NCBI GenBank assembly: GCA_018384485.1 | Contig: JAHBAE010000043.1 | Location: forward strand, 1 to 34,249 | DNA length: 34,249 nucleotides | Direction: 5' to 3' | Source: Kiritimatiellia bacterium | GTDB taxonomy: Bacteria; Verrucomicrobiota; Kiritimatiellia; RFP12; UBA1067 | Part shown: positions 10,323 through 32,518 of the stretch, piece after piece | How the letters are laid out: each line of letters starts with the position of its first letter | Position numbering within the stretch: position 1 is the stretch's first letter | Made by a program: the position numbers and the translations under genes | Notes under the pieces: model-generated | Database searches by the model: none | Seen by the model: only the letters and a program-made list of their open reading frames with translations | Told to the model about the DNA's origin: nothing

Positions 10323-10339
10323 GTTTCTTTCCTTCCTTT

Positions 10340-13731: not shown

Positions 13732-13846
13732 TTTCGCGGTGGGAATTTTTTATTGCGTCGGAATCTTTAAGCGCATGGTAAAGCACTATTGCCAACAGAA
13801 GAGCTATGAGCCTGAGCCCTATGTTATCAAGCTTTTTTAGTTTCAT
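13709..13846 (-). CDS. Mini CdaR/YbbR-like single-helix membrane protein (45 residues)
   Basis: A complete small gene overlapping the cdaA end by 20 bases and the ftsK start by 23 in different frames. The product starts MKLKKLDNIGLRLIALLLAI and continues VLYHALKDSDAIK before a polar tail ending TIFR. The Asn, basic residue, then I-A-L-L-x-A-x-x-L-Y pattern matches the N-terminal anchor of CdaR/YbbR (Bacillus CdaR has NNRWAVKIIALLFALLLY, from memory). CdaR is normally encoded right after cdaA and controls the cyclase from outside the membrane through four YbbR domains; here all of those are missing. AAGGAG at 13861-13856 lies 9 bases before the ATG, inside cdaA. Being a cdaA partner is inference from position and the anchor pattern. 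Confidence 0.7.
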   Translation of the reverse strand: MKLKKLDNIGLRLIALLLAIVLYHALKDSDAIKNSHRENDRTIFR

Positions 13847-14681
13847 TTCCCATTGCTCCTTTTTGAAGATTCTTGAAAAGTTTCATAAGCGGATTTGTGC
13901 GCTTCTCCGAGAGCATCGCTTTTGAAACCCACCTGAGAAGGGCGGCCCTCTCACCCTTGCCGGAATAGCGAGTGATTTTGCCGTTGTGCGCAACGGAAAC
14001 CGTCCCCGTCTCTTCGGAGACCGCTACGACGAGCGCGTCAGTTTCTTCCGAAAGTCCTACGGCCGCGCGATGGCGCATTCCGCTGGTGATAAGGGAAGGA
14101 CTGTTGGAAACGGGGAAGACGCAGTGCGCCGCTGAAATGCGCCCGTTGCGGATTGTTATGCCGCCGTCATGCAGAGGCATCGGCGGAGTGAAAATGGCTT
14201 CAACAAGCTCGCGTGAGAAGATGGCGTCGGTGGCAACACCCGTAGCTTCATAGCCTTTCAGTGAAATGCCGCGCTCGAAGGCGATGAGAGCCCCCATTTT
14301 GTTTGCGGCGAGATGCAGGATAACGTCGGTTACGTATTCGTAATTGACGGAGCCGTCAGACGAATATTTCGGTTTTTCGAAAGAGCTGAATGCGCCGAGC
14401 TGGCTGAGGATGCGGCGGATTTCAGGCTGGAAGATGACGACTGTTGAAATGGCAAGGTATGCAAGAAGCGTGCGGACGATTGTCGTGAGCACATCGAAAT
14501 GAAAAACGTATGTGAAGAGGAACATTACCGCCGCGACAACGCCGACGCCGGTCAATACCTGCCCGAAGCGTGAACCTTTAGCGGCTTTAAGTATGGAGTA
14601 GATTACCGCATAGAGAATTGCAATTTGGATTATCGCGGAGAAATTGATTTTAGAGAGAATGCCTTCGAGAAATTCAATCAT
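13827..14681 (-). CDS. cdaA: Diadenylate cyclase (CdaA type)
   Basis: Makes the second messenger c-di-AMP from two ATP. The 284-residue protein has the CdaA layout: three N-terminal membrane helices (about 15-32, 40-60, 66-86), a short coiled linker, then the DAC domain. The catalytic motifs are LHDGG at 170-174 and RHR at 203-205. Most family members have DGA where this one has DGG; Asp and Gly are kept, so activity is likely. c-di-AMP usually governs potassium, osmotic and cell-wall balance. The start overlaps ftsH by 4 bases, and a CdaR-like small gene overlaps its end. GlmM, a common neighbour of cdaA elsewhere, is absent. Confidence 0.93.
   Translation of the reverse strand: MIEFLEGILSKINFSAIIQIAILYAVIYSILKAAKGSRFGQVLTGVGVVAAVMFLFTYVFHFDVLTTIVRTLLAYLAISTVVIFQPEIRRILSQLGAFSSFEKPKYSSDGSVNYEYVTDVILHLAANKMGALIAFERGISLKGYEATGVATDAIFSRELVEAIFTPPMPLHDGGITIRNGRISAAHCVFPVSNSPSLITSGMRHRAAVGLSEETDALVVAVSEETGTVSVAHNGKITRYSGKGERAALLRWVSKAMLSEKRTNPLMKLFKNLQKGAMGNETKKA
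13856..13861 (-). promoter_or_regulatory. Shine-Dalgarno for the mini-cdaR gene
   Basis: AAGGAG on the minus strand, 9 bases before the ATG at 13846 and within the last codons of cdaA. It is a strong site with no other start codon to serve, which supports the small gene being translated. Confidence 0.7.
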
Positions 14682-16576
14682 GCCAGCTCCTCCGTTTCTT
14701 TGCCGTTTTCCTTAGAAGGCTCTTCCGCCTCTTCGCCGCGTATGAGCTTTTCGACATCGCGCCCGTCCATAGTTTCCTTTTCAAGGAGACGGTTCGCGAG
14801 TATCTCAAGCTTTTCGCGGTTTTTCGTAAGAAGATTCTGCGCTTCCTGATACGCTTCGCTTACCATCTTCTTTACTTCAGCATCAATCTCGCGTGAAGTT
14901 TCTTCGCTGTAGGACGGCGGATGGTTTTCCGACGCGAGGACGTTTTGCCCGATGAACGACTGGAAGCCGAACTTCTCGCTCATTCCGTAGCGGCAGATCA
15001 TTTCCCTTGCAATCTGCGTCGCCTGCTGAATATCTTGCGCAGCCCCCGTGGAGACATCGCCCAGAACGAGCTCCTCGGCGATTCTTCCGCCGCAGCAGAT
15101 GCGAATTTGCGAGAGGAAATATTTGCGTGTTCTGTTGAGGACGTCCTTCTCCGGCAGCGACATCGTAACCCCGAGCGCGCGGCCGCGCGGGATGATCGTC
15201 ACCTTATGGAGAGGGTCGGTATCCGGCAGAAGCACCTGCAGAAGCGCGTGCCCCGCCTCGTGCCACGCCGTAAACTGCCTGTCTTTCTGTGAGTAACCTG
15301 CAGACTTTCTCTCGCGCCCCCAAAGGACTTTATCGCGCGCTTCATCGAGAGTTTCCATATCTACGCCTTCAAGCTTTTTCCTGACGGCCATAAGCGCCGC
15401 CTCGTTCAGGAGGTTTGCCAAATCCGCACCGGAGAAGCCCGGCGTTCCGCGCGCGACGCGGTCGAGGTCGGCATCTGGCGCAAAGGTGATTTTCTTTCCG
15501 TGGAGCTCAAGTATTTCCTTGCGTCCTTTCAGCGTAGGCAGCTCCACCACGACCTGACGGTCGAAGCGGCCTGGACGCAAGAGGGCGGAATCGAGCGTTT
15601 CAGGGCGGTTTGTGGCGGCGATTACGATGACGCCTTCGTTGGCGTCAAAGCCGTCCATCTCAACAAGCATCGTGTTGAGAGTCTGCTCGTATGAGTGCGA
15701 CCCGCCGATTGCGCCGGCGCCAGTTCTCTTCTGCCCGATGGAATCGATTTCGTCAATGAACACTATGCACGGCGCGCGTTTCTTCGCCTCGGCAAACACG
15801 TCGCGCATGCGGCTTGCGCCTACGCCTACGAACATCTCCTCGAAATCGGAGCCGCTCATGGCGAAGAAGGGGACTTTCGCCTCGCCCGCAATCGCCTTTG
15901 CGAGAAGAGTTTTGCCTGTTCCTGGAGGGCCTACAAGAAGCACGCCCTTGGGGATGCGGCCGCCGAGTTTCTGGAATGAGGAAGGCTCTTTCAGAAATTC
16001 GACAATCTCCTGGACTTCCTCACGCGCTTCATCGATGCCGGCCACATCGGAGAACGTAACCTTTTTCGTCTCTTCGTTTCCGTCAAGCAGCCGCGCCTTT
16101 GATTTGCCCATGCCGAAGGGACCGCCGCCTGAGCCTACGCGCCTGAACATCCAATAAAAGAGCGCAAGCATAGCGATGAAAAAGAGAGTCTGCGTCACGA
16201 AAGGCGAAATGGGGCTTTCGCGCTCCACAAGCTTTACCTTGATGGCGTTGTTGAGAAGATCAGCCATAAGCTGTTCGTTCTCGCCAGGAACGAGGTTCAC
16301 CCGATACTTGCGCGTCTTCGGAGAGCCATCATCATTCAGCTCTTCGTTAAGCTCCATTTCTCCGGTGAGAAAAGTCTCTCCATCATCGCGGTCTAAAACA
16401 CGCGTAATCGGCTCTACGATGCGGCCTTTTTCCATCGCCTCGTAGAATTCGACTAAAGTTAAATCGGCTGTCTCGCTAGACCCTCCTGGAGTGGTTTTGT
16501 ACAGAGACAGTAAAATGCCCACGATCAGCGCTATCACAAGCCAAGACCGCCATGTTGATTCACCCTTTTTTGCCAT
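14678..16576 (-). CDS. ftsH: ATP-dependent zinc metalloprotease FtsH
   Basis: A 632-residue inner-membrane protease that extracts and degrades misassembled membrane proteins and unstable regulators. It has two membrane helices (about 11-27 and 128-146) flanking a periplasmic domain. The AAA domain has Walker A GPPGTGKT at 216-223, pore loop FVGVG at 249-253, Walker B IVFIDE at 271-276 and the SRH with arginine fingers ([18 protein letters not shown]). The zinc site is HEAGH at 439-443, followed by a C-terminal coiled coil. It is first in an eight-gene operon. The ATG has no ribosome site; a perfect extended -10 ends 6 bases before it, predicting a leaderless message. Confidence 0.96.
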
Positions 16577-16778: not shown

Positions 16779-19700
16779 ATGAATAAACTAAAAGTATTGG
16801 CAGCGTTCGCTGCGATGTCGTCTATCGTATGCGCAGATACGGTGCAGGAGTTGGAGAAGGCTTTTGACAAGGCCGTCTCTTCTGGGAGGCCGCTTTCGGC
16901 CGAGAGGGCGTTTGAGCAACTCATCGAGAAGGGTGCGAAGCTCTCCCCGAACCGTTACCGTCAGGCGGCGGAAGTTGCTCGGCAACTCGGCAAGATCGAT
17001 CAAAGGAATGCCCGCATAGCGCATTTTCTGAAGATCGAGAAGAATCTGGATGCCGATGCTCTGCGCTTAGCGTACGTATTGGCTTTCGAAGCGAATAATG
17101 CAGAAGCTATAGCTCTGTTGGCGCCCAAGAATGCTGATTCGAGAATATTCTTCAACAAGAGTATGGCCGTTCTCAGAAAATATGTCACGGAGAAGCGCGC
17201 GGCAGAGTTTAAGATTGTTGCCAATGCTCTTCTTCCCGCATTTAAAGACGGAGCCTCGCGTGACGCCATATACGGTTGCGTGTACGATATCCTAATGTCA
17301 GGAACACCCGGCATTTCGTTCAAGGAAGCGCGCGAGATGATTGAGAAGTATCCTGCGGATGAAGTTGCTCAGATAAGCCGTATTATGCACGGCAAGCCCG
17401 GAGAGTTTCCTCCTCTGTGGAAGCTGAAGTATATGGTAGACAATCCGTCGTCAGTTCTTGAGCCGTATGCGTTTGACCGTATATTTGATCTTGTTCATGC
17501 TAAAGACAAGCAGAAAGAAAAGGAAGAGGCGTATGGATATGTTCAAAAGTTAAAACAAAAATTCCTTTGCAAGAAATATCTCCCACAAGCCGCAATTTGC
17601 ATCAAGTTTATTGCCGATTTGAGATCTATCGCCGAGGCGAAAAGCAACAAGAAGCAGGTCTCTTCCGAGATACGCTCTTACATCGAGTCGATAATTGCTG
17701 TAAAGGATGGCATAACGCGCGACTATATGCGCGATATTTTGTACCATGTCCTATCAAGGGGAGCTCTTGATAAGGCGGATGTTGTTTTCTTTCGTGATAA
17801 ATACCCTGAGTATGCGAGTGCGAATTTGGACATCTTGTTGTTAACTGAAGAGTTCAATAAAACGAAGTCGATCGCTCCGATCGCGTCTTTCATTGCAAAG
17901 ATCCCCAATGATGAAATCCGCTTAAAAGATGACCTCTTTTACAATGCGCTCGGCAAATATGGTGCGGTGAAAGATCTTGCTTCTGTAAAGAAAATCATAG
18001 AAGAACGCCTCGCAAGGAGTTGTTATTACAGGGTGAACACCTCTTGCTGGGATGCTCTCTGCACTCTTGACGAGTTCAAACTCTCCGATGCCGAGATTAC
18101 TAAATTTCTCAAGCATTTGCACTCCACCTATGGTTCTCAACAGGAGAATCACAACTTCTGGCGTGAGTTTAAAGGATGGCAACAGGCCCGCTGGAGAAAA
18201 CTTAATATGTTCGACGGCAAGGAATTACTGGTCTTCCAGAAGGAACTTAAGCTTCAGACACCCCCTTCTGACAAAATGCTTGCCATCGCGAATAAGATGA
18301 GGGGATTGCGCTGGGACGCCAATTACAACGCCCCAAATGAGGCGCATAAGCTTTTCGCGGAAGCCTGCCAGATTTACAAAGGGAAGTATAATTCAAAAAC
18401 AACCCCGGAGCAGATGGCTTTTTCCTGTGTAATGAATATGTACTTCGATCTTTGTCGCTATGGCTTGAAATCAATGCCGATATTACTGGAGGCTATTTGC
18501 TCGAAGTTAGATAAAGATGATCCCAAGGTATGGGTTGAGTTCTTCGGTCATGGCAGATATCACCATGTATATTACTACTGCCGTGAGAAACCTGATGTTA
18601 TGCGCAACGCTTGTATCGCATGCGCCAATGCTACGAAGGATCTTAGTTACGCAAGGGATGTTACTTACCCTGCAAAGACAGATAAGCTTGATTTCAGTGT
18701 AGAAATGCGTAGGGCTTCTCCTAAAGCAGAGGCGTCTCTCCTTACTCGTAACTGGCATGGATGGAGCAATAACGAACGCTTTTTTACTCCACGGCTTGCC
18801 GCGGATATGGCCCGCTCAGTGCTTACAAACATGAAAGCGGCCGCTCCTGATCATTCCGAGAAAGAGTGGTTTGGACATACGGTCTTCCCTGTTATCGCGT
18901 CAATTATAGCCGCAGCCCCCAATGAATTTAAGGATTTTAATCTTGATCCGGCCGCTTCGGTGATTTTGACCGGCAAGCCCGAGGATGATTACTGGGCGAA
19001 GCTGTTCCTTTATCATGTCTGCGGGGCGTTGAACGTGTCCGACAAATACCTCAAGGTTTTCACAAAGGCCATTGAAGGGCGCAAAGACTTCGAAAAAGCA
19101 AATCTCATGTCCTGGGCTTGCGCTCAGGTTGCTCCGGTTGTCAAAGGCTCTTACGATACAGGCTTCGGGTGGGCTTTTAAAAATTGTCTCATCCCCGCGC
19201 TTAAGCGCGTCCCTACCGAGAAAGCCCCTCTTGTGGCCTTGCATAGTAATAATGATGCATACATAAGATTTACACAATTTATGGAAGGCTCCAGCAAGCC
19301 CGACTGGACGCTTCTTAAAGAATATTCCTCCGAATGCGTGCGCCTTTTGAGCAATGGTGCAAAAGGCTTTAACGACTCCGAGGGGTCTGCAGGCGCTTGT
19401 GTGTTCAGAGATGTCTACAATGCGGCGCTCGCAAAGAGCAATGCCGTCGAGATAGCGCGAATCGCGCGTGAAACGGGTTCGAGGTTGTGGTATCGCACCT
19501 GGGGGGTTGATCTTGATGTGATATCAAAGATAGCAGATGAGACTGCCCGCCAGAAGCACTGGGAGGCTCTCTATCTCCTTACCTCTACGTTGCCTCTTGT
19601 AGACAAGAGCGTGCAGGTTCTCGTCGCAAATCACCGTGCAGAAGCGTCGAAGCATCTTCCCGGAATCTATCCTGTGTCGGAAAGAGACCCTCTCTATCCG

Positions 19701-22700
19701 CTTTATGTTGCGGCCGACGAGTTTGGAAAGAACAATACCGAGCGCGCCACGGAGCTTCTTATGAAGAATCTCTCCGTCTTTGAGAAAGACGCCTTCGTCC
19801 TTCCTCCCGACTTTGTCGCTTGGGCGGTTGATCAGATGAGATTGGCACGCGGTAAGAACGGAGCGCTTCTTGTTAGGGCGCGTACGCTCGCTTCCCGCCT
19901 CCTTGAAGATGAATCTAAGCTTTCTTCCGAGCTTGCGGCCGCGCTTCTTCTCGTTCGTGCGGAATGCAACCGCGACCAGCAGAATTTCGAAGTCGCGAAG
20001 CTTGAGTACCAGTCAATCCGCAACAACCCCGTCTATTCAAAGACGAAATACGGGCGCAAGGCGATGTATAGAGATATCGATCTTATGATTGAGATGGGCA
20101 ATGCCTCCGCGACGGAGTCGACTCTTGAATATTGGCTCTCACAGCCTGATGTTGAAATTCAGGCGCAGGCTCATTACTTCCTCGCCAGAATCGCTTTCGA
20201 GAGGAAGGATTACGAGGAGTGCCGCAAGCAGTTGAAGGAGGTCTTCTCCATCGACTTTACGCATACGGAAGGGCGCTTCCTTGAGGGCCGTTGGAAACTT
20301 GCCACGGGCAATGAGGTCGACGATACCGAGATTATGATCGGTAATCTTACGGATCGCACAATGGTCCGTCCCGGCCAGCAGCTCGCCATCTCCGTTCAGG
20401 ACCGCAACCTTTCCCTTGCGGGCGGCGGCGCTTCCATTCCCGTTATCATTCAGACGACTCCCGGCGGCGACCGCGAGCGTATTCTCCTCTATCCCACGCC
20501 TCGCGATCCCACGCTTTTCCGCGGCGTGATCGATGTCAAGCTCGGCAAGAGCGTCGTTTCAAACCTCACGCTTGAAGTCTCAGGCAAAGACATCACTTCC
20601 TACAACATCGATACGGAATTTCTCAAGGCGCGCGGGCTTCCTATTCCGCCGCCCAAGTCGATGAAGGTTGTTGACGATGCGCGCCTTATCATCGGCACGG
20701 GAGCTCCCCGCACTGAAGAGAGCGAGGAAGAAGACGGAAAGAAGAAAATTGAAGATATCATCAATTCGTCCGATCTTGCATCGTATCGTCCGCCGTCGCT
20801 CAGGCCTGGAAATCCGTTGCATGTCGCCGTCATGGATAAGGATATGTCTTCTGGCGACGACAGCTCCATTGTGGTTAAGGTGTCGACTTCGTCCGGCGAT
20901 GTTCTTGAGAATCTCGTCCTGAAGGAAGTTCGCCCCTATAGCGGCATCTTCCTCGGCGAAATTCCCACTTCCCTGCCTCCGCCCCGCGCGTACGCTTCCG
21001 ACACCGCTATCGGCTACAACCCCGGCGATGTTATCAGCACCAAGCGTAATGGCGGGTGGAAGTCGCTCTCCGACAGCAAGAAGGGCAAGTCGTTCTCCGT
21101 CGATACGATGGGCTCGCACGTCTTCTCGAATATTGTCGTGAAGATGTCTTCCGCGGAAGAGCTCCGCCGCCTTCGCATCGTCGGCAAAATCGGCAACGAT
21201 GACGTTGAGCTTGCCCACTTCCCCGCCGCTCCCAGCACCGGGCGCACTGGCCTTCGTCGCTGGGTGGGCAACGCGCGTTCGCTGCGCGGAGACAAAGCCG
21301 TTAAGACGTTCTTCGACTCAAACCTCAACATCAAGCCGCAGATTGTTACGAACATCACGTGCGTAGGCAAGAAAGACAGGAACGGCAACGCATGCGTCTC
21401 TTATTTCAAGGGGGCGTTCTTCGTGGATTCTTCAAACGAGGCGTTCAGGCTTCTCATCGCGCCCGTCAAGAACGGCTCTTCGTTCAGAAATCTTGTGCTC
21501 TCCATCAACATCGACGGGAAAAACGTCCTTTCCGGTTTCGGCCCGTCGCTCACCAACCAGATTTTCTCGCGCAGGCTCACGCGCGGTTGCCATACGCTCG
21601 AGGTGATCAGCATCCAGAACTATGAAGAAGATGCGTGGGAGTTGTGCTGGAATCCCGTAGGGGAAGAGGCTAAGCACATTCCTGCTTCCTGGTTTGACGA
21701 AAAGGTTCATCCAGAGCTCAACGAATATCTTGCCGACAAGGCTCAGATCGTTCGCGATGCCGAAGGGTTCAATGTCACGTTCAGAGCCCCCACGAGGCTC
21801 AGGTCGTTCACCTTGGAATTCTTAGAGCATAGCTCGTCCGCCGTTTCGCTCAGCAAGATTTACGCGACGGATTGGAGCGGCAAGGGGATTCTCCCCGTTG
21901 AGACTGATTTCTCCGAAGCTCAAAAGAACGGTATGCTTGAGGTTGCCCCTGGCGATTCCATTTCCGTAAGGTATGAGGATAAATCCACTTCATCCGGCCG
22001 TCCGCGCGTGGTGGACAAGTCGATCAATTCCTCCTTCAATGATGCTGATATCGGTTTCTATTACGAGCAGATTGTTGTCGAAAACGATAACCAGGTCATG
22101 AAGCACTGTTATTCGGCATACAGGTTTATCCCTGGCGATAAGCTTCTTGTCGGTTTACGCGATCAGGACCTTGACGTGTCTGACGAGGCTGATACGGCGG
22201 AAGTTGTCATCACCATGCCTAACGGCGAAAAACAGAAGCTCCTTCTTGTCGAACAGCAGGATATGTTCGCCTGCAATGGGACGACCATAAACAGCAGCCA
22301 AGATATCGTCGGCGTGCATTCGGCTTTCTTCCTCGGGCTTGTCACAACGCACCAGAAGGGTGTTACAAACGGCGTTAAGAAATCTTCGATTGAATGCACT
22401 GACGAATCTGAGCTTGTAGTTTCGTACATTGACCGCGAAAATACGTCTCCAGGCGTTCCGTTCGTGCGCACGGCGAGAGTGCCTGCCACATCGAAGTCCA
22501 ACGCAAGGCTTACGGTGTTCAATTCCCGCACGTCTCGCGTCATCGACAAATCTCCCGCGGCTCAGGCGAGGATCAGCGCTCTTCGCCGCAGGGCTGGCAA
22601 CGAAAAGGTCGATCGCCTCTACACGACACAGGTGACTGCGTCTCTGGCTGATCGCGCCACGCTCAATTCTACGAATGATATTCCGGCGAATATTTCCGCG

Positions 22701-24536
22701 CCGATCTTCCTGCGCGTCAACGATCCTTCGCTTGCCCGCCACAGCAGTTCGTATGTAACGCTTGAGGTCGTTACGGAGTCTGAGCGCGCCAGAGCCGAGC
22801 TTGACGGCGACGAGCCTGATGTGAAGTCTACAAAAGTCAGGCTCGCCGCTCCGTTCGAAGGAGGTAATCTCAGCAACGGGCGCGAGTCGCTTGAGGAAGC
22901 TCTCGCCAACGGCAGCTTCAACTGCACCATCAAGCTTCTGATGGGCGAAATCACCCCTGAGCTACTTGCTCCCGCCCATAACAGCCTTAATGCCGGCTAT
23001 GAGCCTATCGCGTTGCCCGTTACAGGCCACGACAGAATCCATGTGACGGTTAAGGATTCCGAAGGAAACGAGCTCATCAAGCGCACGTTCTGCCTTATTT
23101 CCAACGCCGAGATGGAACTTGTCGATTCTTCTCTCATTGCCGAGAGAACGTCCGTTCACGTCGGCGAGCGCCTCTATGTGAAGGTATCTGACGCCGATCG
23201 CGATTTGACGGAAGATCCCGATAACGTTGAAGTGCAGGTTGAGACTACCGGCGGAACTCGCCGCAAAGTGATTCTCACGGAATCGCTTCCGCATTCCGGC
23301 ATCTTCTCTGGCTCTGTAAGGCCGATTATCATTCCGCCGTCTGAAAAGATCCCTTCCGTAATCACGGGAGCGACCGCCTCGGTCGAAGAGCTTATTGCGG
23401 ACGACAGAATCCCCGTCAAGTTCGGCGAGAAGCTTATAATCACTTATACCGATTCCAAGGTTCTCCCCGGTTATGACGCTTACACGCTCTCCGTCACCGG
23501 CACGGTTTATAAGGGCGCCGACGGCTCCGTAAGGCTCTTCTCTAAGCGTTTCCGCGATGTCGATGCGGCAGTGCTCGTGCAGTTCCGCCTTGCCGAGTGT
23601 CTTTTTGAACAGGCAAAGGACTTCCGCAAATTGAAGCAGGTTGATAAGAGTGCCGAGGCGATTGCCAAGGGTAGGGGCATTCTTGAAGAGGCTCTCAAGA
23701 ACAACCCCGAAAGCGCGCATGTCGCTCAGGGCGAGTTTCTTCTTGCGAACCTCTATCAGGAGCTTGCGGCAGAAGAGGAAGTTCTTGCCAAGCAGCTCCG
23801 TAGTGATGGAGACGAAGAGGCTTCCGCCGAGGCGACTAAGAAGTCTCGTCAGCTCTATGCGGAGGCTCTTGCCCGCTTCTCGTCGATTCTCGCCGTCTGG
23901 CCGGAAGGCGAGTATGCACCTCGTGCGCAGTATCACAAGGCCTACTGCCTTGAAATGCTCAAGGATTACAAGCTTGCCGGCGAGGAATACGTGAAGATGA
24001 CGTATATGTACCCCGAGTCCGATCTCGTCGGCGACGCAACAATCAGGCTTGCCACGTACTACTTCCGCGAAGAGAAGAAGTATCAGACCGCGGCAAGAAT
24101 CTACGAGAGCTTCGCCCGCAGGTTCCCGAATCATGACAAGGCAGCGCGAGCGCTCTTTATGTCGGGAAGCTGCTACATCAAGGAAGGCGAGACAATCCAC
24201 AAAAAGGCGGTTGAGGCAGCCCGTCTCGCGGCAGAGAAGACAAAGAGGGAGTTTTCGCCTAACCAGGTCTACATGCCTGTGGCGACGGTTGAAAATTATA
24301 CGCGTGCGGTTAACGCCTTCGTGGATATGGCAGAGAAGTATCAGGCCGTCACAACGCCGGAGTTAAGGGCGCAGGGCCTTTATTGGGCCGGCGACGCGTC
24401 GCTCCGCAAGGATGATGTTAAGGCAGCCTACATCTTCCTCAAGCGCGCCGTGCTTGAATATCCTGAAACGGAATGGGCACGCCGCGCACGCGGTCTCCTC
24501 CTCCAGAACGGCAAGCGCTTCAGGGACATTGACTAA
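16779..24536 (+). CDS. Giant exported TPR and beta-domain protein (2585 residues)
   Basis: No named protein is recognised. A signal peptide (MNKLKVLAAFAAMSSIVCA, cleavage before Asp20) sends it out of the cytoplasm. Residues 20 to about 1180 are helical and TPR-like. From about 1182 to 2240 come repeated Asp-rich beta domains whose starts read PG-x-x-L-x-V-x-x-x-D (near 1195, 1341, 1782, 2125), with GIF-x-G turns near 1388 and 2174. A PA14-like patch lies near 1540-1630. Residues 2262-2585 are clear TPRs (AGEEYVKMTYMYPESDLVGD, and ARIYESFARRFPNHDKAARA). GGAG precedes the ATG. The next gene's ribosome site begins at its stop. A scaffold or assembly factor of the envelope is plausible but unproven. 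Confidence 0.85.
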   Translation: MNKLKVLAAFAAMSSIVCADTVQELEKAFDKAVSSGRPLSAERAFEQLIEKGAKLSPNRYRQAAEVARQLGKIDQRNARIAHFLKIEKNLDADALRLAYVLAFEANNAEAIALLAPKNADSRIFFNKSMAVLRKYVTEKRAAEFKIVANALLPAFKDGASRDAIYGCVYDILMSGTPGISFKEAREMIEKYPADEVAQISRIMHGKPGEFPPLWKLKYMVDNPSSVLEPYAFDRIFDLVHAKDKQKEKEEAYGYVQKLKQKFLCKKYLPQAAICIKFIADLRSIAEAKSNKKQVSSEIRSYIESIIAVKDGITRDYMRDILYHVLSRGALDKADVVFFRDKYPEYASANLDILLLTEEFNKTKSIAPIASFIAKIPNDEIRLKDDLFYNALGKYGAVKDLASVKKIIEERLARSCYYRVNTSCWDALCTLDEFKLSDAEITKFLKHLHSTYGSQQENHNFWREFKGWQQARWRKLNMFDGKELLVFQKELKLQTPPSDKMLAIANKMRGLRWDANYNAPNEAHKLFAEACQIYKGKYNSKTTPEQMAFSCVMNMYFDLCRYGLKSMPILLEAICSKLDKDDPKVWVEFFGHGRYHHVYYYCREKPDVMRNACIACANATKDLSYARDVTYPAKTDKLDFSVEMRRASPKAEASLLTRNWHGWSNNERFFTPRLAADMARSVLTNMKAAAPDHSEKEWFGHTVFPVIASIIAAAPNEFKDFNLDPAASVILTGKPEDDYWAKLFLYHVCGALNVSDKYLKVFTKAIEGRKDFEKANLMSWACAQVAPVVKGSYDTGFGWAFKNCLIPALKRVPTEKAPLVALHSNNDAYIRFTQFMEGSSKPDWTLLKEYSSECVRLLSNGAKGFNDSEGSAGACVFRDVYNAALAKSNAVEIARIARETGSRLWYRTWGVDLDVISKIADETARQKHWEALYLLTSTLPLVDKSVQVLVANHRAEASKHLPGIYPVSERDPLYPLYVAADEFGKNNTERATELLMKNLSVFEKDAFVLPPDFVAWAVDQMRLARGKNGALLVRARTLASRLLEDESKLSSELAAALLLVRAECNRDQQNFEVAKLEYQSIRNNPVYSKTKYGRKAMYRDIDLMIEMGNASATESTLEYWLSQPDVEIQAQAHYFLARIAFERKDYEECRKQLKEVFSIDFTHTEGRFLEGRWKLATGNEVDDTEIMIGNLTDRTMVRPGQQLAISVQDRNLSLAGGGASIPVIIQTTPGGDRERILLYPTPRDPTLFRGVIDVKLGKSVVSNLTLEVSGKDITSYNIDTEFLKARGLPIPPPKSMKVVDDARLIIGTGAPRTEESEEEDGKKKIEDIINSSDLASYRPPSLRPGNPLHVAVMDKDMSSGDDSSIVVKVSTSSGDVLENLVLKEVRPYSGIFLGEIPTSLPPPRAYASDTAIGYNPGDVISTKRNGGWKSLSDSKKGKSFSVDTMGSHVFSNIVVKMSSAEELRRLRIVGKIGNDDVELAHFPAAPSTGRTGLRRWVGNARSLRGDKAVKTFFDSNLNIKPQIVTNITCVGKKDRNGNACVSYFKGAFFVDSSNEAFRLLIAPVKNGSSFRNLVLSINIDGKNVLSGFGPSLTNQIFSRRLTRGCHTLEVISIQNYEEDAWELCWNPVGEEAKHIPASWFDEKVHPELNEYLADKAQIVRDAEGFNVTFRAPTRLRSFTLEFLEHSSSAVSLSKIYATDWSGKGILPVETDFSEAQKNGMLEVAPGDSISVRYEDKSTSSGRPRVVDKSINSSFNDADIGFYYEQIVVENDNQVMKHCYSAYRFIPGDKLLVGLRDQDLDVSDEADTAEVVITMPNGEKQKLLLVEQQDMFACNGTTINSSQDIVGVHSAFFLGLVTTHQKGVTNGVKKSSIECTDESELVVSYIDRENTSPGVPFVRTARVPATSKSNARLTVFNSRTSRVIDKSPAAQARISALRRRAGNEKVDRLYTTQVTASLADRATLNSTNDIPANISAPIFLRVNDPSLARHSSSYVTLEVVTESERARAELDGDEPDVKSTKVRLAAPFEGGNLSNGRESLEEALANGSFNCTIKLLMGEITPELLAPAHNSLNAGYEPIALPVTGHDRIHVTVKDSEGNELIKRTFCLISNAEMELVDSSLIAERTSVHVGERLYVKVSDADRDLTEDPDNVEVQVETTGGTRRKVILTESLPHSGIFSGSVRPIIIPPSEKIPSVITGATASVEELIADDRIPVKFGEKLIITYTDSKVLPGYDAYTLSVTGTVYKGADGSVRLFSKRFRDVDAAVLVQFRLAECLFEQAKDFRKLKQVDKSAEAIAKGRGILEEALKNNPESAHVAQGEFLLANLYQELAAEEEVLAKQLRSDGDEEASAEATKKSRQLYAEALARFSSILAVWPEGEYAPRAQYHKAYCLEMLKDYKLAGEEYVKMTYMYPESDLVGDATIRLATYYFREEKKYQTAARIYESFARRFPNHDKAARALFMSGSCYIKEGETIHKKAVEAARLAAEKTKREFSPNQVYMPVATVENYTRAVNAFVDMAEKYQAVTTPELRAQGLYWAGDASLRKDDVKAAYIFLKRAVLEYPETEWARRARGLLLQNGKRFRDID

Positions 24537-24537
24537 T

Positions 24538-24541
24538 GGAG
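24538..24541 (+). promoter_or_regulatory. Shine-Dalgarno that fixes the second TPR gene start
   Basis: GGAG lies 6 bases before the ATG at 24548. An in-frame ATG at 24536 overlaps the previous stop (TAATG) but includes this ribosome site in its own coding sequence. The start at 24548 also gives a cleaner signal peptide. Confidence 0.65.
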
Positions 24542-24547
24542 AATCAG

Positions 24548-26242
24548 ATGAAACTCTTTGAGCGTATCAGTTCAAAATGCGCCATCGCCGCCCGCGTCGC
24601 AATCGCGGCGGCGGCGATGTTCGCCTCTCAATTCGCCTTAGCCGATCTCTATTGGAACTGGCGCATGCCAGGCGATATCTATAGCGGGCTCGATTTTGAG
24701 ACGCGCGTCGGGGTCGATAAGGCTTCCAAGTGTTTTTCCGACGCGATCAATGCGGAACGCAACGGTGCGAATTCTGTAAAGCTCATCCCTCTTTACAGAG
24801 CGGCCGTTGCGGAGTGGCGTAAAGTCGAAATCCAGGCGGAGGCCGACAACACAAACGACGACCTTCTCGCATACGCAGCCTTCATGCAAGGCTACGCAAG
24901 GTTTCGCGCTCACGATACGAACGAGGCCGTCAAGTTCTTCAATCAGGTTGTCGACCTTTATGAAGATCTCGAATGGGTCACGTTCCCGGCAAAATATTTC
25001 ATTGCCCGCGTTAAGTTAGATGCAGGCGAGATGAGAACCGGCTGGAATCTTTACGAGGAGATTTTCCATGGAGATGAAGGGAAGACTCATCCGCTTATGG
25101 CCAACGTCGCCAACAGCTTGGGCTGGAAAAAGTGGGATGAGCTCAAGGAGGCTGAGGCTCAGGAGGCCTGGACGGTAGGCGCTTCCGAGCATTTTGCCAA
25201 CTCCAACTGGCGCGCCCGCAACGCAAGCGTCGAGGGGCTTCTCCTCGCGTGCGTCATACGCGGCGCCTTTGATGACCTTGAAAACTTTCTCTTCGCCGGA
25301 GTGAAGGAAGAGAATACTAAGCGCAGAAGGGAAGTCGTCTATGGGAACGCCGACTGGTTTCTCTGGCAAATCACCTATGGCCATTCCGCTCTCTGCAAGC
25401 AGATAAGAAGGAAATGCAAGAGCGATTCTGAATGCGCGACGAAGACTCGCGAGCTGCATTCGCGTTATGTCGAATGGTTTGAAGGAAAGAGAAATCTGCT
25501 TGTCGTCAACGGTGACGATTTCCACTTCTGCGTGAAGCAGATTAAGCTTCGTCTTAGGCTGGAGAAGCGTGACAAGATAACATCCCGGATTTTAGCTCTC
25601 GCTTCCGGGCTTGGCAAAATCAAGGATGACAAAGCAAAGGCCTCACGCGTCAGAACTGTTATTGACTTGTTTTACGACCTTAACGATTTTGATTCGGCGT
25701 TCATCGTTGCCGACAAAATGCCCGGGGCGGGAGCCGCCGCATATTTAAGGTATGAAATTGCGAAGACGGCCGCCGAGCGAGGCAAAGGCAAATGGGACGA
25801 CTGCATTCCACACCTCAAGGAATATCTCAATACGCATCCGGAGTCTAGTTCTGTGCTGAATGCAAAGTATATAATGGGCTGGATATATCGCGAGCGCATG
25901 GGAGATGCGAAGAAGGCGCTGGAGGTATATCTTGATATCACGGATCCGCCGAAATCGCTTTGGGAGCTTGCCTGGACGTACCGCAAGCTCGGCGAGAAGA
26001 GCAAGGCGGAGAATACGCTTACGGAAATCGCCTCGCTCTTTGAGAAGGATGCTCCGCGCGCGGTATTGACTCTTGCTCAATATGCCGAGGCGGATGGAAA
26101 CAGAAAGAAGGCGGTTGCCCTCTACAAGAGATTGCTTTCCCAGCCGGAATGGAAGAAGCTGGGCGAGTCTTCCCAAGCCCATCAGGCGTTGGAGCGCCTC
26201 GGCGAGCGCACGGGCGGCGCGATGATAAACGAGGTGCATTAA
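24548..26242 (+). CDS. Exported TPR protein (564 residues)
   Basis: Signal peptide of about 32 residues: a basic start (MKLFERISSKCAIAAR), a hydrophobic Ala-rich core and a cut after FALA before DLYWNW. The rest is alpha-helical with TPR-like pairs, for example VKFFNQVVDLYEDLEWVTFP, KYIMGWIYRERMGDAKKALE and AVLTLAQYAEADGNRKKAVA. No beta domain of the type in its neighbours was seen. It starts 11 bases after the giant gene and ends 34 bases before the third gene, so it is co-transcribed. A 12-residue longer form from ATG 24536 is the alternative. The function is unknown; it is presumably a periplasmic partner of the other two. Confidence 0.85.
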   Translation: MKLFERISSKCAIAARVAIAAAAMFASQFALADLYWNWRMPGDIYSGLDFETRVGVDKASKCFSDAINAERNGANSVKLIPLYRAAVAEWRKVEIQAEADNTNDDLLAYAAFMQGYARFRAHDTNEAVKFFNQVVDLYEDLEWVTFPAKYFIARVKLDAGEMRTGWNLYEEIFHGDEGKTHPLMANVANSLGWKKWDELKEAEAQEAWTVGASEHFANSNWRARNASVEGLLLACVIRGAFDDLENFLFAGVKEENTKRRREVVYGNADWFLWQITYGHSALCKQIRRKCKSDSECATKTRELHSRYVEWFEGKRNLLVVNGDDFHFCVKQIKLRLRLEKRDKITSRILALASGLGKIKDDKAKASRVRTVIDLFYDLNDFDSAFIVADKMPGAGAAAYLRYEIAKTAAERGKGKWDDCIPHLKEYLNTHPESSSVLNAKYIMGWIYRERMGDAKKALEVYLDITDPPKSLWELAWTYRKLGEKSKAENTLTEIASLFEKDAPRAVLTLAQYAEADGNRKKAVALYKRLLSQPEWKKLGESSQAHQALERLGERTGGAMINEVH

Positions 26243-26276
26243 TTTTTTTCACGAGATTTAAAAAGGAGCGAATATA

Positions 26277-28502
26277 ATGAAGAAACTGGTAATGGCTGGA
26301 TTGGCAATGGCGTGTGCCGTTGCATATTGCGATGCGGCTAAGACTTCCAAGGACTCGAAAGATTCCAAGGAAATTAGCGCGGCAGCGGCCGCGAAGACGG
26401 CTGCGCAGGCAGAACGGAGAGCGATGCGCATGATTAAAAATGCAGTCTCTCTCCTTCAAGAGAGGGAGGAAGACCGCGCGATTAACATGCTTGAGGCCGT
26501 TCCGAGGATGTACCCCCAGTCGCAGTCGAGATTCAAGGCCCACCTTGAGCTTGGCCGTCACTGTTTAAGCAAGCGCGATTTCGACCGCGCTCTTGCGGAG
26601 CTGAAGAAAGCATGCGAATCAAAGGAAGAGGAAGTCTGCGCCGAGGCGAATTTCCTTACCGGCGAGCTTTACCTTGCGAAGAATCAGCCGGGCGAGGCGG
26701 CTATGGTTTTTCGCCGCGTTTCGCAGGACTTCCCCACGAGCGATTTCGCGAACGACGCGTTCTTCAAAATCGGGCAGATACACTTTCATGCAGGCCGCTG
26801 GGCCCGCGCGACGGAGGCGTTCGAGATGGTTGGCACGGCAGTTCCTCTTTCCGTGAAGACGAACGCGGTCGTTCTTGTGGAGGCGGGGCAGCGCATCTTT
26901 GTCCATGTGACGGATAAGGACCTTGCCGTTCTCGCGCTTATGGGAGAGAAGACCAAGGTTAAACTTATCGGCTCCGGCGGCGACAGCGAAACTGTGGAGC
27001 TTGCGTCCTTCGGCAAGGGCGATGGTGATTTTATCGCTTCATGCAATACTACTCTCGTGCCTTCGCAGGTGAACGACGGGGTTCTCACCGTTCGCGGCAA
27101 TGATCCAATTAAGGTTGAGTACATCGACAACAATACGCTCAACGGCGATATCAATATTGTGCGCAAGGCAGATGCTCACACGGCCTCTTCCGCAACCGTT
27201 GCGTTCCTTGATGGCGCCATGAGGCAGAAGGTTAACGGCGTGTTCGTCGATCAGCCCGCGTTCATCCGTCTGCGCGATCTTGACCTCGATTTGACTGACG
27301 GTGTCGACAAGGCGACGGTTCATGTCAAGTCCACTTACCGCGAGCGTCCTGAGCCGGCTCCCGGCGAGACGGTCGCCCCTCCGCCCGCGCCAGATGCTCC
27401 ATGGCTTACGCGCTATGAGATGGATGTCGTTCTTTCCGAGACAGGCCCCCGCACCGGCATCTTTGCAGGCAGGATTGTTGTCCGCCTTTTACCTGCCGAC
27501 ACGAATAAAATCGTCAAACTCCCTGCCAACGAAATCTACGCCAGCGCGGAAGATAAAGTTGTCGTGGAATATGATGACAAGAGGCATCTCGGCGGGGAAG
27601 GTACGGCCAATCGTTCTTCTTCGGCGATCGTTCTCGTCGGCGGTTCGACGGAGCCTAAGTCGATCGTCGCTCATTCAAGCGAGGCTACGATTCAGGCAAA
27701 GAAGCTTCTCCTCGAAGCGAAGCTCCTCTACAAGTGGGCCGCAATCTTCAAGGATGTTGGTCTTGTAGACAGCGCCCGCGAGAAATCTGACGACGGCCTT
27801 CAGCGCATTTCCACGGTCTTTGATCTCTCTAACCGCAATACGCTCGACCGCACAGTTATCGAAGAGGCGTATGAAGCGCGTTGGAATCTTTTCCTTGTGC
27901 GCGACGACTTGAAAAATGCCGTTGCAACATGTAATGCGCTTGTAAAGCGTTTCCCTGATACGGTTCTTGCCGATCGCGCATTCATGCGTATTGCAATGGC
28001 AAGGCGCGAGGAAAAGGAGCATGATGCGGCAAGAAATGCGATTGCCGTGTTCAAGGCGATTCTCGACCTTCCAAATTCGCAGCTTAAGGCCGAGGCTCAG
28101 TACCGCATCGCGGAGACTCTCGAGATGTCGGCGAGAGAAGCAGCGGCAAAATCCAAAGCTCGCAATGCGAAGCCCGATTTCTCCAGCGCGATGGCGGCCT
28201 ACCAGACTTGCGCCGATGCGTATCCGACAAGCTCGTTCGCAGGTGAGTCGTACAAGAAGATGGTCGACTACTGCATCTCCATCAAGACATTCCCGAGGGC
28301 GCTTGAGATGATCCGCCGCGTGCTTGAAGATTATCCCGATGCTCCTTGGCTCGATGAAATGATTGTCAAGTGGGGTGTTATACTTCACCGTCAGGGCGAC
28401 AGAGAAGGGGCTATCGCCAAGTTCCGTCAGGTTCTTGAGGAGTATCCCAGCGGCAAGGCGGCCAAGCAGGCCTCGCAGTTTATCAAGCGTTTGGAGGACT
28501 AA
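26277..28502 (+). CDS. Exported TPR protein with two Asp-rich beta domains (741 residues)
   Basis: Signal peptide MKKLVMAGLAMACAVAYCDA. TPRs fill about residues 45-185 (HLELGRHCLSKRDFDRALAE, FFKIGQIHFHAGRWARATEA). Two beta domains follow: one from about 199 (EAGQRIFVHVTDKDL) to 310, the second from about 325 (FIRLRDLDLDLTDGVD) with TGIFAG near 392 and DKVVVEYDDK near 425. The C-terminal part from about 465 is TPR again (AIAKFRQVLEEYPSGKAAKQ). This beta-then-TPR order repeats the C-terminal third of the giant protein, so the two share ancestry. AAGGAG stands 8 bases before the ATG. The following aminopeptidase starts at its stop. No function can be named. Confidence 0.85.
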   Translation: MKKLVMAGLAMACAVAYCDAAKTSKDSKDSKEISAAAAAKTAAQAERRAMRMIKNAVSLLQEREEDRAINMLEAVPRMYPQSQSRFKAHLELGRHCLSKRDFDRALAELKKACESKEEEVCAEANFLTGELYLAKNQPGEAAMVFRRVSQDFPTSDFANDAFFKIGQIHFHAGRWARATEAFEMVGTAVPLSVKTNAVVLVEAGQRIFVHVTDKDLAVLALMGEKTKVKLIGSGGDSETVELASFGKGDGDFIASCNTTLVPSQVNDGVLTVRGNDPIKVEYIDNNTLNGDINIVRKADAHTASSATVAFLDGAMRQKVNGVFVDQPAFIRLRDLDLDLTDGVDKATVHVKSTYRERPEPAPGETVAPPPAPDAPWLTRYEMDVVLSETGPRTGIFAGRIVVRLLPADTNKIVKLPANEIYASAEDKVVVEYDDKRHLGGEGTANRSSSAIVLVGGSTEPKSIVAHSSEATIQAKKLLLEAKLLYKWAAIFKDVGLVDSAREKSDDGLQRISTVFDLSNRNTLDRTVIEEAYEARWNLFLVRDDLKNAVATCNALVKRFPDTVLADRAFMRIAMARREEKEHDAARNAIAVFKAILDLPNSQLKAEAQYRIAETLEMSAREAAAKSKARNAKPDFSSAMAAYQTCADAYPTSSFAGESYKKMVDYCISIKTFPRALEMIRRVLEDYPDAPWLDEMIVKWGVILHRQGDREGAIAKFRQVLEEYPSGKAAKQASQFIKRLED
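28493..28497 (+). promoter_or_regulatory. Shine-Dalgarno that fixes the aminopeptidase start
   Basis: GGAGG lies 4 bases before an ATG at 28502 and 7 before a second in-frame ATG at 28505 (TAATGATG). Spacing favours 28505; both may be used. Confidence 0.6.
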
Positions 28503-29961: not shown

Positions 29962-31518
29962 ATGACGATAAATGCATCAAGAAGGGGCTTCCTCCGAGGT
30001 TTGGCGGGAGCTGGAGTGTTTGGCATAGGCGGTTGCAAATGCGCTTTCGGACAGCAGAAAATCCGTCTTGCCGCAGTTGGCGTTATGGGCAAGGGCTACA
30101 GCGATTGGGTGCCGATGCTCAAGTCGGGCTTTGTTGAGATGGTTGCTTTCTGCGATGCCGACTACGGTATGCGTGAGAAAGCTCAGATGGCTTTGATCAG
30201 GGACGGTATTGATCTTGATATGTATTCGATTCCGTTCTATACCGATTACCGCAAGCTTCTTGACGACGCAGGCATTCTCGGCATTGACGCGATGACGATT
30301 TCCACTCCTGACCACGTGCACGCCGCCATTGCAGTCGGTGCGATGAAGCAGGGCATTCACGTGTATGTGCAGAAGCCCCTCGTCAGGACTCTTTGGGAGA
30401 ATGATTATTTCAACAGGACCGCACGCGACAACAATGTCATCGTGCAGATGGGCAACCAGGGCTCCTCGCTCGACTCGATGCGCCGTTGCACGGAAGTTAT
30501 CCAGAGCGGCATTCTCGGCGATGTCAAGGAAGTTCACGTTTGGACGAACCGTCCCGTGTGGCCTCAGGGCACGAACGTCGCCGACTGGGTGAAGAAGAAC
30601 ACGAAGGGCGATCGTGTCCGCGACGGGCTTAACTGGGATGCGTGGCTCGGCGTCGCCGAGAAGCGTCCGTTCCTCGATCAGTATCCCAAGGACGCCGATG
30701 TTTACGATCCTTGGGGGCTCGGTAAGAACGTCTACCATACATTCACATGGCGCGGCTTCTTCGATTTCGGCGCGGGTGCTTTCGGCGATATGGCATGCCA
30801 TACGATGAACCTCGCGTTCCGCGGCCTTGAGCTCGGTGCCGTTTCCGACGCTGAATGTACTCAGATTGAGTCTGAGAATGACATCGCCTATCCTCTCAAG
30901 TCTGTCGTCAAGCTTACCTACAAGGCGCGTGAGTCGAAGGTTCGTCCCGGCGTCAATCTTCCTGCCGTTACGCTCTACTGGTACGATGGCAACATCAAGC
31001 CTGATGCGGCGATCATGCCTAAGTGGGCATCTTCTCACGGCGGCAAGGTTCCCGACACGGGCTGCTACATCATCGGCTCGAAGGGCGCTGTTCTCATGCA
31101 GGACGACTACGGTGCACGTTGCGCCATCGCCCTCAATGACGAGAAGAATTTCGTCGACATCTTCAAGCACGGGGCCGCTCAGGCCGTTCCTCGCACGATT
31201 CCGTTCTGCGACAATTCCTCGGCCTCTGTTGCAGGCGGCAAGTCGACCGTCGAGATGAAGGGCTTTGCCGAGGGTCACTACGGCGAGTTCCTCCGCGCCA
31301 TCCGCGGCGAGGGCAACTACTATGAGCAGACTCATTCGCGCTGCTTCTCCGACATCGAATATTGCATTCCTCAGATGGAAGGCATTCTCGTCGGCTGCGT
31401 GGCTCAGCGCATGGGCCGTGGCGTCAAGCTCGAATGGGATTCCGCTGCTCAGAAGTTCAACAGCGCGAAGGCCAACGAGTTTGTCAAGCCATACATCCGC
31501 AAGGGCTTTGAATTCTAA
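29962..31518 (+). CDS. Tat-exported Gfo/Idh/MocA family oxidoreductase
   Basis: 518 residues. The N-terminus SRRGFLRGLAGAGVFGIGGC has a twin-arginine motif and a possible lipobox (IGGC, Cys25), so the enzyme is exported folded, presumably with its NAD cofactor, and perhaps lipid-anchored. The Rossmann fold starts at IRLAAVGVMGKGYSDW. The family signature normally reads EKP; here it is QKP at 137-139 (VYVQKPL), with the catalytic Lys kept, as I recall for secreted PVC members. Members oxidise or reduce sugar hydroxyls; exported relatives include GH109 glycosidases and 3-keto-glycoside-forming dehydrogenases. AAGG lies 7 bases before the ATG. It is first of three co-transcribed genes. The substrate is unknown. 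Confidence 0.88.
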   Translation: MTINASRRGFLRGLAGAGVFGIGGCKCAFGQQKIRLAAVGVMGKGYSDWVPMLKSGFVEMVAFCDADYGMREKAQMALIRDGIDLDMYSIPFYTDYRKLLDDAGILGIDAMTISTPDHVHAAIAVGAMKQGIHVYVQKPLVRTLWENDYFNRTARDNNVIVQMGNQGSSLDSMRRCTEVIQSGILGDVKEVHVWTNRPVWPQGTNVADWVKKNTKGDRVRDGLNWDAWLGVAEKRPFLDQYPKDADVYDPWGLGKNVYHTFTWRGFFDFGAGAFGDMACHTMNLAFRGLELGAVSDAECTQIESENDIAYPLKSVVKLTYKARESKVRPGVNLPAVTLYWYDGNIKPDAAIMPKWASSHGGKVPDTGCYIIGSKGAVLMQDDYGARCAIALNDEKNFVDIFKHGAAQAVPRTIPFCDNSSASVAGGKSTVEMKGFAEGHYGEFLRAIRGEGNYYEQTHSRCFSDIEYCIPQMEGILVGCVAQRMGRGVKLEWDSAAQKFNSAKANEFVKPYIRKGFEF

Positions 31519-31522
31519 CACA

Positions 31523-31550
31523 AAAGGAAAACAAAAAAAGGAAAACAAAA
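31523..31550 (+). repeat. Tandem 14-base repeat carrying two Shine-Dalgarno-like cores
   Basis: AAAGGAAAACAAAA occurs at 31523-31536 and again at 31537-31550, back to back, ending on the A of the ATG of the next gene. Each copy holds AAAGGA; the second lies about 8 bases before the start codon, the first about 22. Confidence 0.7.
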
Positions 31551-32518
31551 TGAATATCTCAAGAAGGAGTTTCCTCGGTACGCTCGGCTTCGCCGGCGCC
31601 GCCGTTCTTGCCCCGGGCTGCACATGCAAATGCTGCGGCCCCAAGGCTAAGGTTGCTCTCCAGCTCTATTCCATCCATCGCTATATCGCCAAGGTCGGCT
31701 TTGCGAAGGCTCTTGCCGATGTCGCGGCCATTGGGTATTCTGGTGTTGAGTTTGCAGGTTACGGCACTCACACTCCTGCAGAGCTCCGCAAGATGCTTGC
31801 CGATAACGGGCTTCAAGTTTGCGGTACGCATGTTGGAAACAGCGCGTACGGCTTCAAGATTGATGCTAAGGAAGGCAAGTTTGAATACGATGCCGAGGTT
31901 CTTAAGAAGACGTGTGAGTTTGAGCTCGCTTACGGCAATAGCCTCGTCATTTGCCCCGGCGGCGGAAATATTCCTCCTGGGGCCGGTTGGGGAATGGAGC
32001 AGCCTCCTGCTACGGCGGAGAAAGACGAGTTCATCAAGCGCCTTGCCGACCTTTACAACAAGGCCGCCAAGGATGCCGCGACGATGGGTTGCCGCATAGG
32101 TCTTCATAACCACATATGGGAGCATACCGTCAAGATGCTGGACGGAACGAGTTATTGGGATTACTTCTTCTCCAATACGGACAAGGCTGTTTGCATGGAG
32201 CAGGATGTCGGCTGGACAGCATGCGCAGGCGGCGATCCTTGCGCCCAGTACAACAAGTATCCCGGCCGCTCGCCCACTCTCCACGCCAAGGAGAACGGCA
32301 TGGGCTCGAACGTCAAGAAGTTTGACGCGATTCTCGGTAAGCCTGGAATGGATGAAAACGGCAAGGTCGTAGCCGTAGGCGTCGATTGGGATAAACTTAT
32401 CGTCGCTTCCGAGGCTGATGGAGTCAAGTGGTATGTTGTTGAGTGCGAAAGGCATCAGGATGATCTTACCGCAGTCACACCTTCGTATGCATTTCTTAAA
32501 GAAAAGGGGTTAAAATGA
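31550..32518 (+). CDS. Tat-exported sugar phosphate isomerase/epimerase-type TIM barrel
   Basis: 322 residues, starting MNISRRSFLGTLGFAGAAVL with a Tat motif and a possible lipobox at APGC (Cys24). The start at ATG 31550 is set by the duplicated AAAGGA just upstream; upstream in-frame sequence overlaps the first oxidoreductase. The body is a xylose-isomerase-like (AP endonuclease 2) TIM barrel with likely metal ligands in LHNHIWE (185-191), MEQDVGW (216-222), PGRSPTLHAKE (238-248) and VVECE (296-300). Relatives are epimerases and isomerases, and also C-deglycosylases or 3-keto-glycoside lyases that work with Gfo/Idh/MocA partners. It overlaps the next gene by 4 bases. The fold is sure; the reaction is inferred only from context. 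Confidence 0.88.
   Translation: MNISRRSFLGTLGFAGAAVLAPGCTCKCCGPKAKVALQLYSIHRYIAKVGFAKALADVAAIGYSGVEFAGYGTHTPAELRKMLADNGLQVCGTHVGNSAYGFKIDAKEGKFEYDAEVLKKTCEFELAYGNSLVICPGGGNIPPGAGWGMEQPPATAEKDEFIKRLADLYNKAAKDAATMGCRIGLHNHIWEHTVKMLDGTSYWDYFFSNTDKAVCMEQDVGWTACAGGDPCAQYNKYPGRSPTLHAKENGMGSNVKKFDAILGKPGMDENGKVVAVGVDWDKLIVASEADGVKWYVVECERHQDDLTAVTPSYAFLKEKGLK

Follow-up and report, generated by a model that had tools for sequence, protein, structure and literature searches.

A three-gene locus for exported TPR proteins in a Kiritimatiellia bacterium as the probable exported part of an ExbB/ExbD-driven envelope system of PVC bacteria

Three exported TPR proteins, one of them a giant

What role is played in the cell envelope by three adjacent genes which encode exported, TPR-containing proteins, one of them of 2585 residues? 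The genes lie in the window, the stretch of 34,249 nucleotides analysed here, which is contig C51 of a 1.82-Mb genome of 117 contigs (labelled G000). Named close relatives of this genome comprise Kiritimatiellae as well as uncultured assemblies recovered from gut samples (yak, goat and others).

16779..24536, plus strand: gene A, exported giant of 2585 residues (open reading frame call; Pfam TPR/YfiO)
24548..26242, plus strand: gene B, exported TPR protein of 564 residues (TPR_6, 3e-13)
26277..28502, plus strand: gene C, exported protein of 741 residues, organised as TPR, beta, TPR

The open reading frames match the arrangement given in the first-pass annotation, in which the genes are adjacent, co-oriented and separated by 11 and 34 bases. 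The A-to-B gap of 11 bases holds for the ATG at 24548; an alternative ATG at 24536 would give a B protein of 568 residues and a 1-base overlap with the stop of A. The signal peptide assigned to each protein was also seen, as Sec-type signal-peptide-like N-termini mark A, B and C, as judged by inspection. TPR-type families were the sole matches of the three proteins in Pfam and NCBIfam, and enzyme families were not found in either collection, in keeping with the earlier remark that no enzyme motif is present.

The co-oriented run extends past C, the open reading frame of an M18 aminopeptidase overlapping the C stop by one base (28502). The aminopeptidase was dropped as a partner of C because it follows C in the sub-lineage of the window only. 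Genes for FtsH, a CdaA-type diadenylate cyclase and FtsK are divergent from A. The cyclase gene overlaps ftsH by four bases (window 13827-16576) in a single transcription unit divergent from A, and the overlap may link c-di-AMP to membrane proteolysis. Three adjacent genes located downstream (29962-34038) encode two GFO/IDH/MocA dehydrogenases (glycoside 3-dehydrogenase-like) and a sugar-isomerase-like TIM barrel, and probably make up a sugar oxidation operon unconnected with A-B-C.

Domains recognised in A and C, all on the plus strand, are the following.

20328..23513 (A, residues ~1184-2245): beta region of Ig-like domains (AF2 model, Foldseek, VIA)
20976..21917 (A, residues ~1400-1713): F5/8-type-C (CBM32-like) galactose-binding-like domain (VIA; PF00754 in homologues)
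21207..21740 (A, residues ~1477-1654): PA14-like sugar-binding fold, nested inside the F5/8-type-C-like domain (VIA; PF07691 in homologues)
23559..24533 (A, residues ~2261-2585): C-terminal TPR region (TPR_16, YfiO)
26364..26825 (C, residues 30-183): N-terminal TPR, BamD-like by sequence (AF2 model, sequence match)
26874..27629 (C, residues 200-451): beta module homologous to that of A, S-layer-Ig-like fold (hhalign, VIA)
27684..28496 (C, residues 470-740): C-terminal TPR, CpoB/YbgF-like (CpoB match, AF2 model)

The long N-terminal region of A includes a TPR at residues 1129-1161; with the NCBIfam tol_pal_ybgF domain model the C-terminal TPR region of A scores 69.6 bits, under the cut-off. AF2 models, both of fair confidence, were obtained from alignments of homologues at the loci of relatives. 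In the model of A residues 1180-2379 (pLDDT 82.3) beta structure extends to about residue 2245, and is followed by TPR helices to residue 2379; the model of C (pLDDT 81) features the TPR, beta and TPR segments delimited above. The best Foldseek match of the A beta region is the Nitrosopumilus S-layer protein 8c8m (E 8.7e-25), and 221 residues were aligned by VIA to 8c8k (Z 14.4, rmsd 8.2). The beta part of C aligns to 8c8k over 213 residues (Z 15.0, rmsd 7.6). This likeness emerged on a separate look at the beta part, as the best 50 Foldseek matches listed for the whole C model are mainly TPR proteins.

The CBM32-like domain of A resembles 8ayr (VIA Z 14.3, 121 aligned, rmsd 2.4), and the nested domain a Marinomonas PA14 domain (VIA Z 11.8-12.0). 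The A sequence of the window reaches neither PF00754 nor PF07691, and support comes from homologues: PF00754 was matched in 11 of 40 homologous A segments (best 2.4e-5), PF07691 in 4 A homologues (best 2.5e-27). A profile of the A beta region has no sequence match among solved structures. The likeness of these predicted folds to S-layer, CBM32 and PA14 proteins does not establish a common function.

A and C are related. Profile-profile alignment of C with A residues 1180-2379 (hhalign, E 3.5e-27, 99.7% probability) covers the beta part plus the following TPR, and beta structure precedes TPR in both models, as expected from the claim that two of the genes combine TPR with the same beta domain. 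This domain had been termed Asp-rich. Its composition is only mildly so, Asp accounting for 6.6% of residues in the A beta region and 8.6% in that of C, against 5.2% in the other open reading frames of the window; what is striking is the presence of invariant Asp positions, as in D-x-D, which in C are D213, D215, D334 and D336. C scores 119.5 bits with the TIGR02795 tol_pal_ybgF domain, above the cut-off of 90.1, and matches CpoB (6g5s) over residues 625-733 (E 2.3e-10). It remains under the cut-offs of the whole-protein CpoB model NF008068 (80.9 bits vs 383) and of the T9SS PorW/SprE model NF052312 (47.5 bits vs 250).

Association of A, B and C with an ExbB/ExbD motor

Loci homologous to A-B-C were sought in one genome per species, neighbouring genes being classified by custom-built HMMs. 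A total of 51 genuine loci were found in Kiritimatiellota, Lentisphaerota, Verrucomicrobiota and Planctomycetota. Genes are ordered A-B-C-ExbB-ExbD1-ExbD2-TM-DUF4159 or, in a second clade, B-C-A-ExbB-ExbD1-ExbD2-TM, and B adjoins C in nearly all loci. The two orders correspond to separate clades in the tree of C, bar contig L131, which holds B-C only, so that the order relative to A is not readable there. ExbB lies downstream of the trio in 34 of the 44 loci with at least 1.2 kb past the last of A, B or C, at a distance of 7-676 bases. Where sequence runs on past ExbB, two ExbDs, a protein with a TonB/TolA-like helix (TM protein) and a DUF4159 membrane protein are found. Loci lacking ExbB are mostly those of the sub-lineage of the window (five loci), plus two in which DUF4159 is directly upstream of A. 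The A-type giants measure about 2,200-2,900 residues. Outer-membrane barrels, Pal and lipoprotein anchors are absent from the conserved gene set, and lipobox-like motifs are rare, with 3-5 cases per TPR protein among about 50 copies. In the other loci, the genes on either side of the operon are not conserved within the stretches that were read.

The trio is kept, as A-B-C or B-C-A, across PVC phyla; its homologues stay together rather than being scattered without synteny, and profile searches did not assign the giant to an unrelated characterised family. Because the order is kept, one exported complex, as proposed in the first-pass annotation, is likely. The set of genes, though, would include a membrane motor, and the machine would not be extracytoplasmic only.

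The operon is split in two in the lineage of the window, A-B-C residing in the window and the motor genes on contig C114 of the same genome. The latter carries ExbB, ExbD1, ExbD2, short TM and DUF4159 genes in the standard order on the minus strand (L089 11517-15086). C114 ExbB and its counterpart in the contiguous operon of G029 share 75% identity, whereas the figure for two other ExbBs of the same genome is only 31-40%. The same split is observed in G024, G012 and G032, where the M18 gene comes after A-B-C and a different contig carries the motor set. Since an ExbB/ExbD set follows the trio elsewhere, and is found on C114 here, the periplasmic scaffold suggested earlier is more plausibly the arm of a machine driven by protons.

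A gene for an exported protein follows the C114 motor set (10092-11396), and a homologue occupies the same place in G024 (L090 8700-10004). Two A-B-C-M18 loci (contigs C117 and C61; L062, L074) and one motor set were found in G024. Of the two A copies in this genome, one is 58% identical to the A of the window, the other is partial, at 84%; the double locus points either to paralogy of the exported part or to a bin of mixed origin.

Duplications were noticed also in other genomes. The closed 5.68-Mb chromosome of G361 hosts two copies of the system (L150-L153), one with two adjacent A-type giants (2462 and >2147 residues). Two A paralogues surround C in L139, L143 and L146. In L126 (16504-21887) a second cluster, made by a TPR gene (1091 residues), ExbB and ExbD, is found directly after the DUF4159 gene. 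These bacteria seem to contain several TPR/ExbBD systems side by side.

Linkage was complemented by co-occurrence. A, C, the ExbB subfamily (E <= 1e-40) and the TM protein are common to the same 12 of 58 related genomes (G000, G003, G007, G012, G024, G029, G032, G038, G040, G044, G047, G057), A and C being counted over most of their length. G003 was counted as a carrier, yet has only part of C, at a contig end; a C fragment alone, at a contig end too, is present in G043. The TM protein search gave one extra weak match in the ftsK region of the window contig, probably by chance. Within the genus, the DUF4159 domain was found in exactly the same 7 of 35 genomes as the carriers, a match expected by chance once in 6.7 million if genomes were independent, which they are not. 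G057, which has no DUF4159 match, is 62% complete. Among 388 genomes of the phylum, C is present in 24, and DUF4159 in all of these (24/24), compared to 152 of 388 overall. The capsule/exopolysaccharide export domain PF02563 and the TonB plug PF07715 fail to separate carriers from non-carriers. From these patterns the system appears to be transmitted as one unit, also where its halves lie apart on the chromosome, and its patchy presence within the genus argues against a housekeeping envelope role.

DUF4159 alone was discarded as a marker of the system. It is too broad, because it is found also beside MoxR/DUF58-like genes. DUF4159 proteins of about 500 residues occur in L154-L157 without A-B-C, some of them beside such genes, in what is an uncharacterised separate use. 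The two kinds share a C-terminal PF13709 domain (solved relative 4i66), but the DUF4159 protein of the system has membrane helices and lies beside ExbBD, whereas the other kind adjoins MoxR/DUF58-like genes.

Residues of the motor are conserved. Operon ExbB copies match PF01618 (ExbB/TolQ family), and the motifs GTVTG and EALxxTAxGL are invariant or nearly so in 20 sequences, including that on C114 of G000. ExbD1 and ExbD2 match PF02472 and keep the TM Asp, the consensus being DIAFLLIIFF. The TM protein, of about 140 residues, has a single helix, then a charged linker, and closes with a conserved acidic tail, PPKKEFQLGDDLSLD in the genome of the window. Its helix is of the S-x3-H type, His being found in 24/24 operon copies and Ser, four residues before, in about 20; an exception is the TM protein of G071 (L158), with Phe at the His position. 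S-x3-H is the motif where the transducer helix of TonB/TolA meets ExbB/TolQ. The contact has been discussed in a recent survey (PMC12204202). The TM protein does not feature a globular C-terminal domain of the TonB/TolA type, and the L069 copy has no TonB/TolA Pfam match. Acidic tails of this sort are commonly bound by the grooves of TPR proteins, and the tail may therefore dock on B, C or A.

In the DUF4159 protein a C-terminal DUF4159 domain (PF13709) is fused to 4-5 membrane helices; PF13709 was the sole match at E<=0.1 in three operon copies. In the deep clade the last helix also bears S-x3-H, and the protein may thus be a second transducer. The literature collection searched contained no paper naming DUF4159. 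An open frame of 1313 residues in G047 (C9:88443-90122) includes a DUF4159 domain and a stretch like A residues 1045-1189, and may represent two system components that have fused naturally.

A putative trans-envelope machine and alternative readings

The best explanation of A, B and C is that they form the exported portion of a proton-driven trans-envelope machine which PVC bacteria encode in eight genes; a probability of about 0.6 is assigned to this reading. It draws on the gene set, its synteny and co-occurrence, the motor residues and the predicted folds. The inner-membrane motor would consist of ExbB and two different ExbDs, and proton flow through ExbB/ExbD1/ExbD2 would move the TM protein, perhaps the DUF4159 protein too. 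The short, one-helix TM protein is most likely carried by the motor and engages the TPR proteins, and the multi-helix DUF4159 protein would complete the membrane part. The tail of the TM protein would pull the TPR arms. A and C, in which TPR solenoids would flank S-layer-like beta domains, joined in A by sugar-binding-like ones, would relay motion across the periplasm, and the pull would reach a polymer at, or close to, the outer membrane or the cell surface, a glycan or other surface polymer being probably gripped. The output may be the moving, holding or anchoring of this polymer, as in Agl-Glt/Nfs. On the predicted folds, the machine probably acts on a glycan or surface polymer, and cells probably pull or push something in the outer envelope with a device not described earlier as a whole. 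Tentatively, a distinct class of PVC machines may be envisaged, in which a minimal transducer, reduced to S-x3-H helix, linker and acidic tail, would drive giant TPR/S-layer-like/CBM proteins on surface glycan, possibly for gliding, adhesion to plant fibres or surface-polymer assembly in gut Kiritimatiellae. Against a proton-driven machine stand the following observations: the two halves are unlinked in the genome of the window itself, the conserved set includes no outer-membrane barrel, Pal or lipoprotein anchor, and Phe replaces His in the TM protein of G071.

Motors of this type may alternatively energise uptake. A TonB-like importer, in which oligo- or polysaccharides would be moved over the outer membrane and A and C would be periplasmic glycan-binding relays or docking proteins, would fit the TonB/TolA-type S-x3-H helix, the predicted sugar-binding-like folds of A, and a related TonB/ExbB/ExbD cluster of Fibrobacter, with raised levels on cellulose and a proposed role in cellodextrin import (PMC6851124). 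It is nevertheless unlikely, given that the conserved set has no TonB-dependent receptor, that TonB plug domains occur in carriers and non-carriers alike, with none detected in the carrier G024 (72% complete), and that no TonB-like globular domain closes the short transducer.

Less likely still is a passive surface layer or scaffold composed of A, B and C, with an ExbBD motor that either assembles it or is merely encoded nearby. TPR solenoids are scaffolds, the Ig folds predicted are S-layer-like, and in the window genome the halves are unlinked; yet the all-or-none association with a specific ExbB and TM subfamily persists even where linkage is lost, and several other ExbD copies are present in every genome, so that the specific pairing is not explained by chance. 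A Tol-Pal-like role, by which the outer membrane would be kept attached or constricted at division with C as a CpoB-like partner, agrees with the CpoB/YbgF-like C-terminal TPR of C and with the Tol-type motor and transducer helix, but is similarly improbable, as tolB and pal are missing from the conserved set (contiguous loci), and an envelope-integrity system is expected to be near universal, not confined to 7/35 genus members and 24/388 phylum genomes.

A proton-driven trans-envelope machine remains the preferred reading. ExbBD/TolQR/AglRQS-type motors serve widely differing purposes, from uptake and outer-membrane tethering to gliding and spore-coat transport. The analysis supplies a complete eight-gene parts list for one PVC version of the motor, and ties it to giant exported proteins with predicted sugar-binding-like folds.

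Comparison with known systems

Tol-Pal and TonB-ExbBD share with the system the motor residues, the S-x3-H transducer helix and a CpoB-like TPR, and differ in that here two ExbDs, TPR-beta giants and DUF4159 are found, and the conserved set has no TolB, Pal or receptor. The Nitrosopumilus maritimus S-layer protein (8c8m; PMC11153153) has in common the predicted fold of the beta domains of A and C; here these domains are flanked by TPR solenoids, in bacterial proteins encoded in a motor operon.

The Agl motor of Myxococcus is proton-driven and made by one TolQ (AglR) and two TolR (AglQ, AglS) proteins. Agl-Glt includes exported TPR proteins and the 4132-residue TPR protein GltI, for which no signal peptide was predicted, and Agl-Nfs moves glycan strands around the spore, being halted by CCCP or by an AglQ Asp mutant (PMC3169522, PMC3858216). 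In gene composition, the likeness lies in a single TolQ with two TolR, and in TPR proteins that include a giant. In contrast, Glt has the FHA/TonB protein GltG and the outer-membrane candidates GltH, GltA and GltK, DUF4159 is absent from Agl-Glt/Nfs, and an S-layer-like/CBM core has not been reported there.

The nearest published relatives are the TPR-ExbB-ExbD-ExbD-TonB cluster of Fibrobacter and the TPR-tolQ-tolR-tolR-vWA clusters of PVC bacteria. In the rumen bacterium Fibrobacter succinogenes, FSU_2396-2403 encode OmpA, TPR, TPR, ..., ExbB, ExbD, ExbD and TonB; the TPR genes FSU_2397/2398 are close to ExbB, ExbD, ExbD and TonB (2400-2403) and are raised on cellulose, and FSU_2397 was found in a multiprotein complex (PMC6851124). 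Motor composition and adjoining TPR genes are common features, by description; the Fibrobacter cluster differs by OmpA and a TonB family protein, and neither a giant nor DUF4159 has been reported there.

Among published PVC relatives, the TPR-tolQ-tolR-tolR-vWA cluster comes closest; it was reported in 2025 as a "new class of force transducers" of unknown function, in hosts including Tichowtungia (PMC12204202). The remark of the first-pass annotation that the set was not recognised as a described system is fair, DUF4159 having no match in the literature searched, but the general kind (TPR, tolQ, two tolR and a transducer) had been reported. Both share a TPR gene, one TolQ-like gene and a pair of different TolR-like genes, and the published transducer helix is of the SHLS type, like S-x3-H here. 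That transducer ends in a vWA fold, whereas the putative transducer here, the TM protein, is short and without a globular end, and the DUF4159 membrane protein and three exported genes, one for a giant with predicted S-layer-like and sugar-binding-like domains, set the system apart by description. The system is accordingly filed as a variant of ExbBD-driven trans-envelope machines, distinct from Tol-Pal, TonB and Glt.
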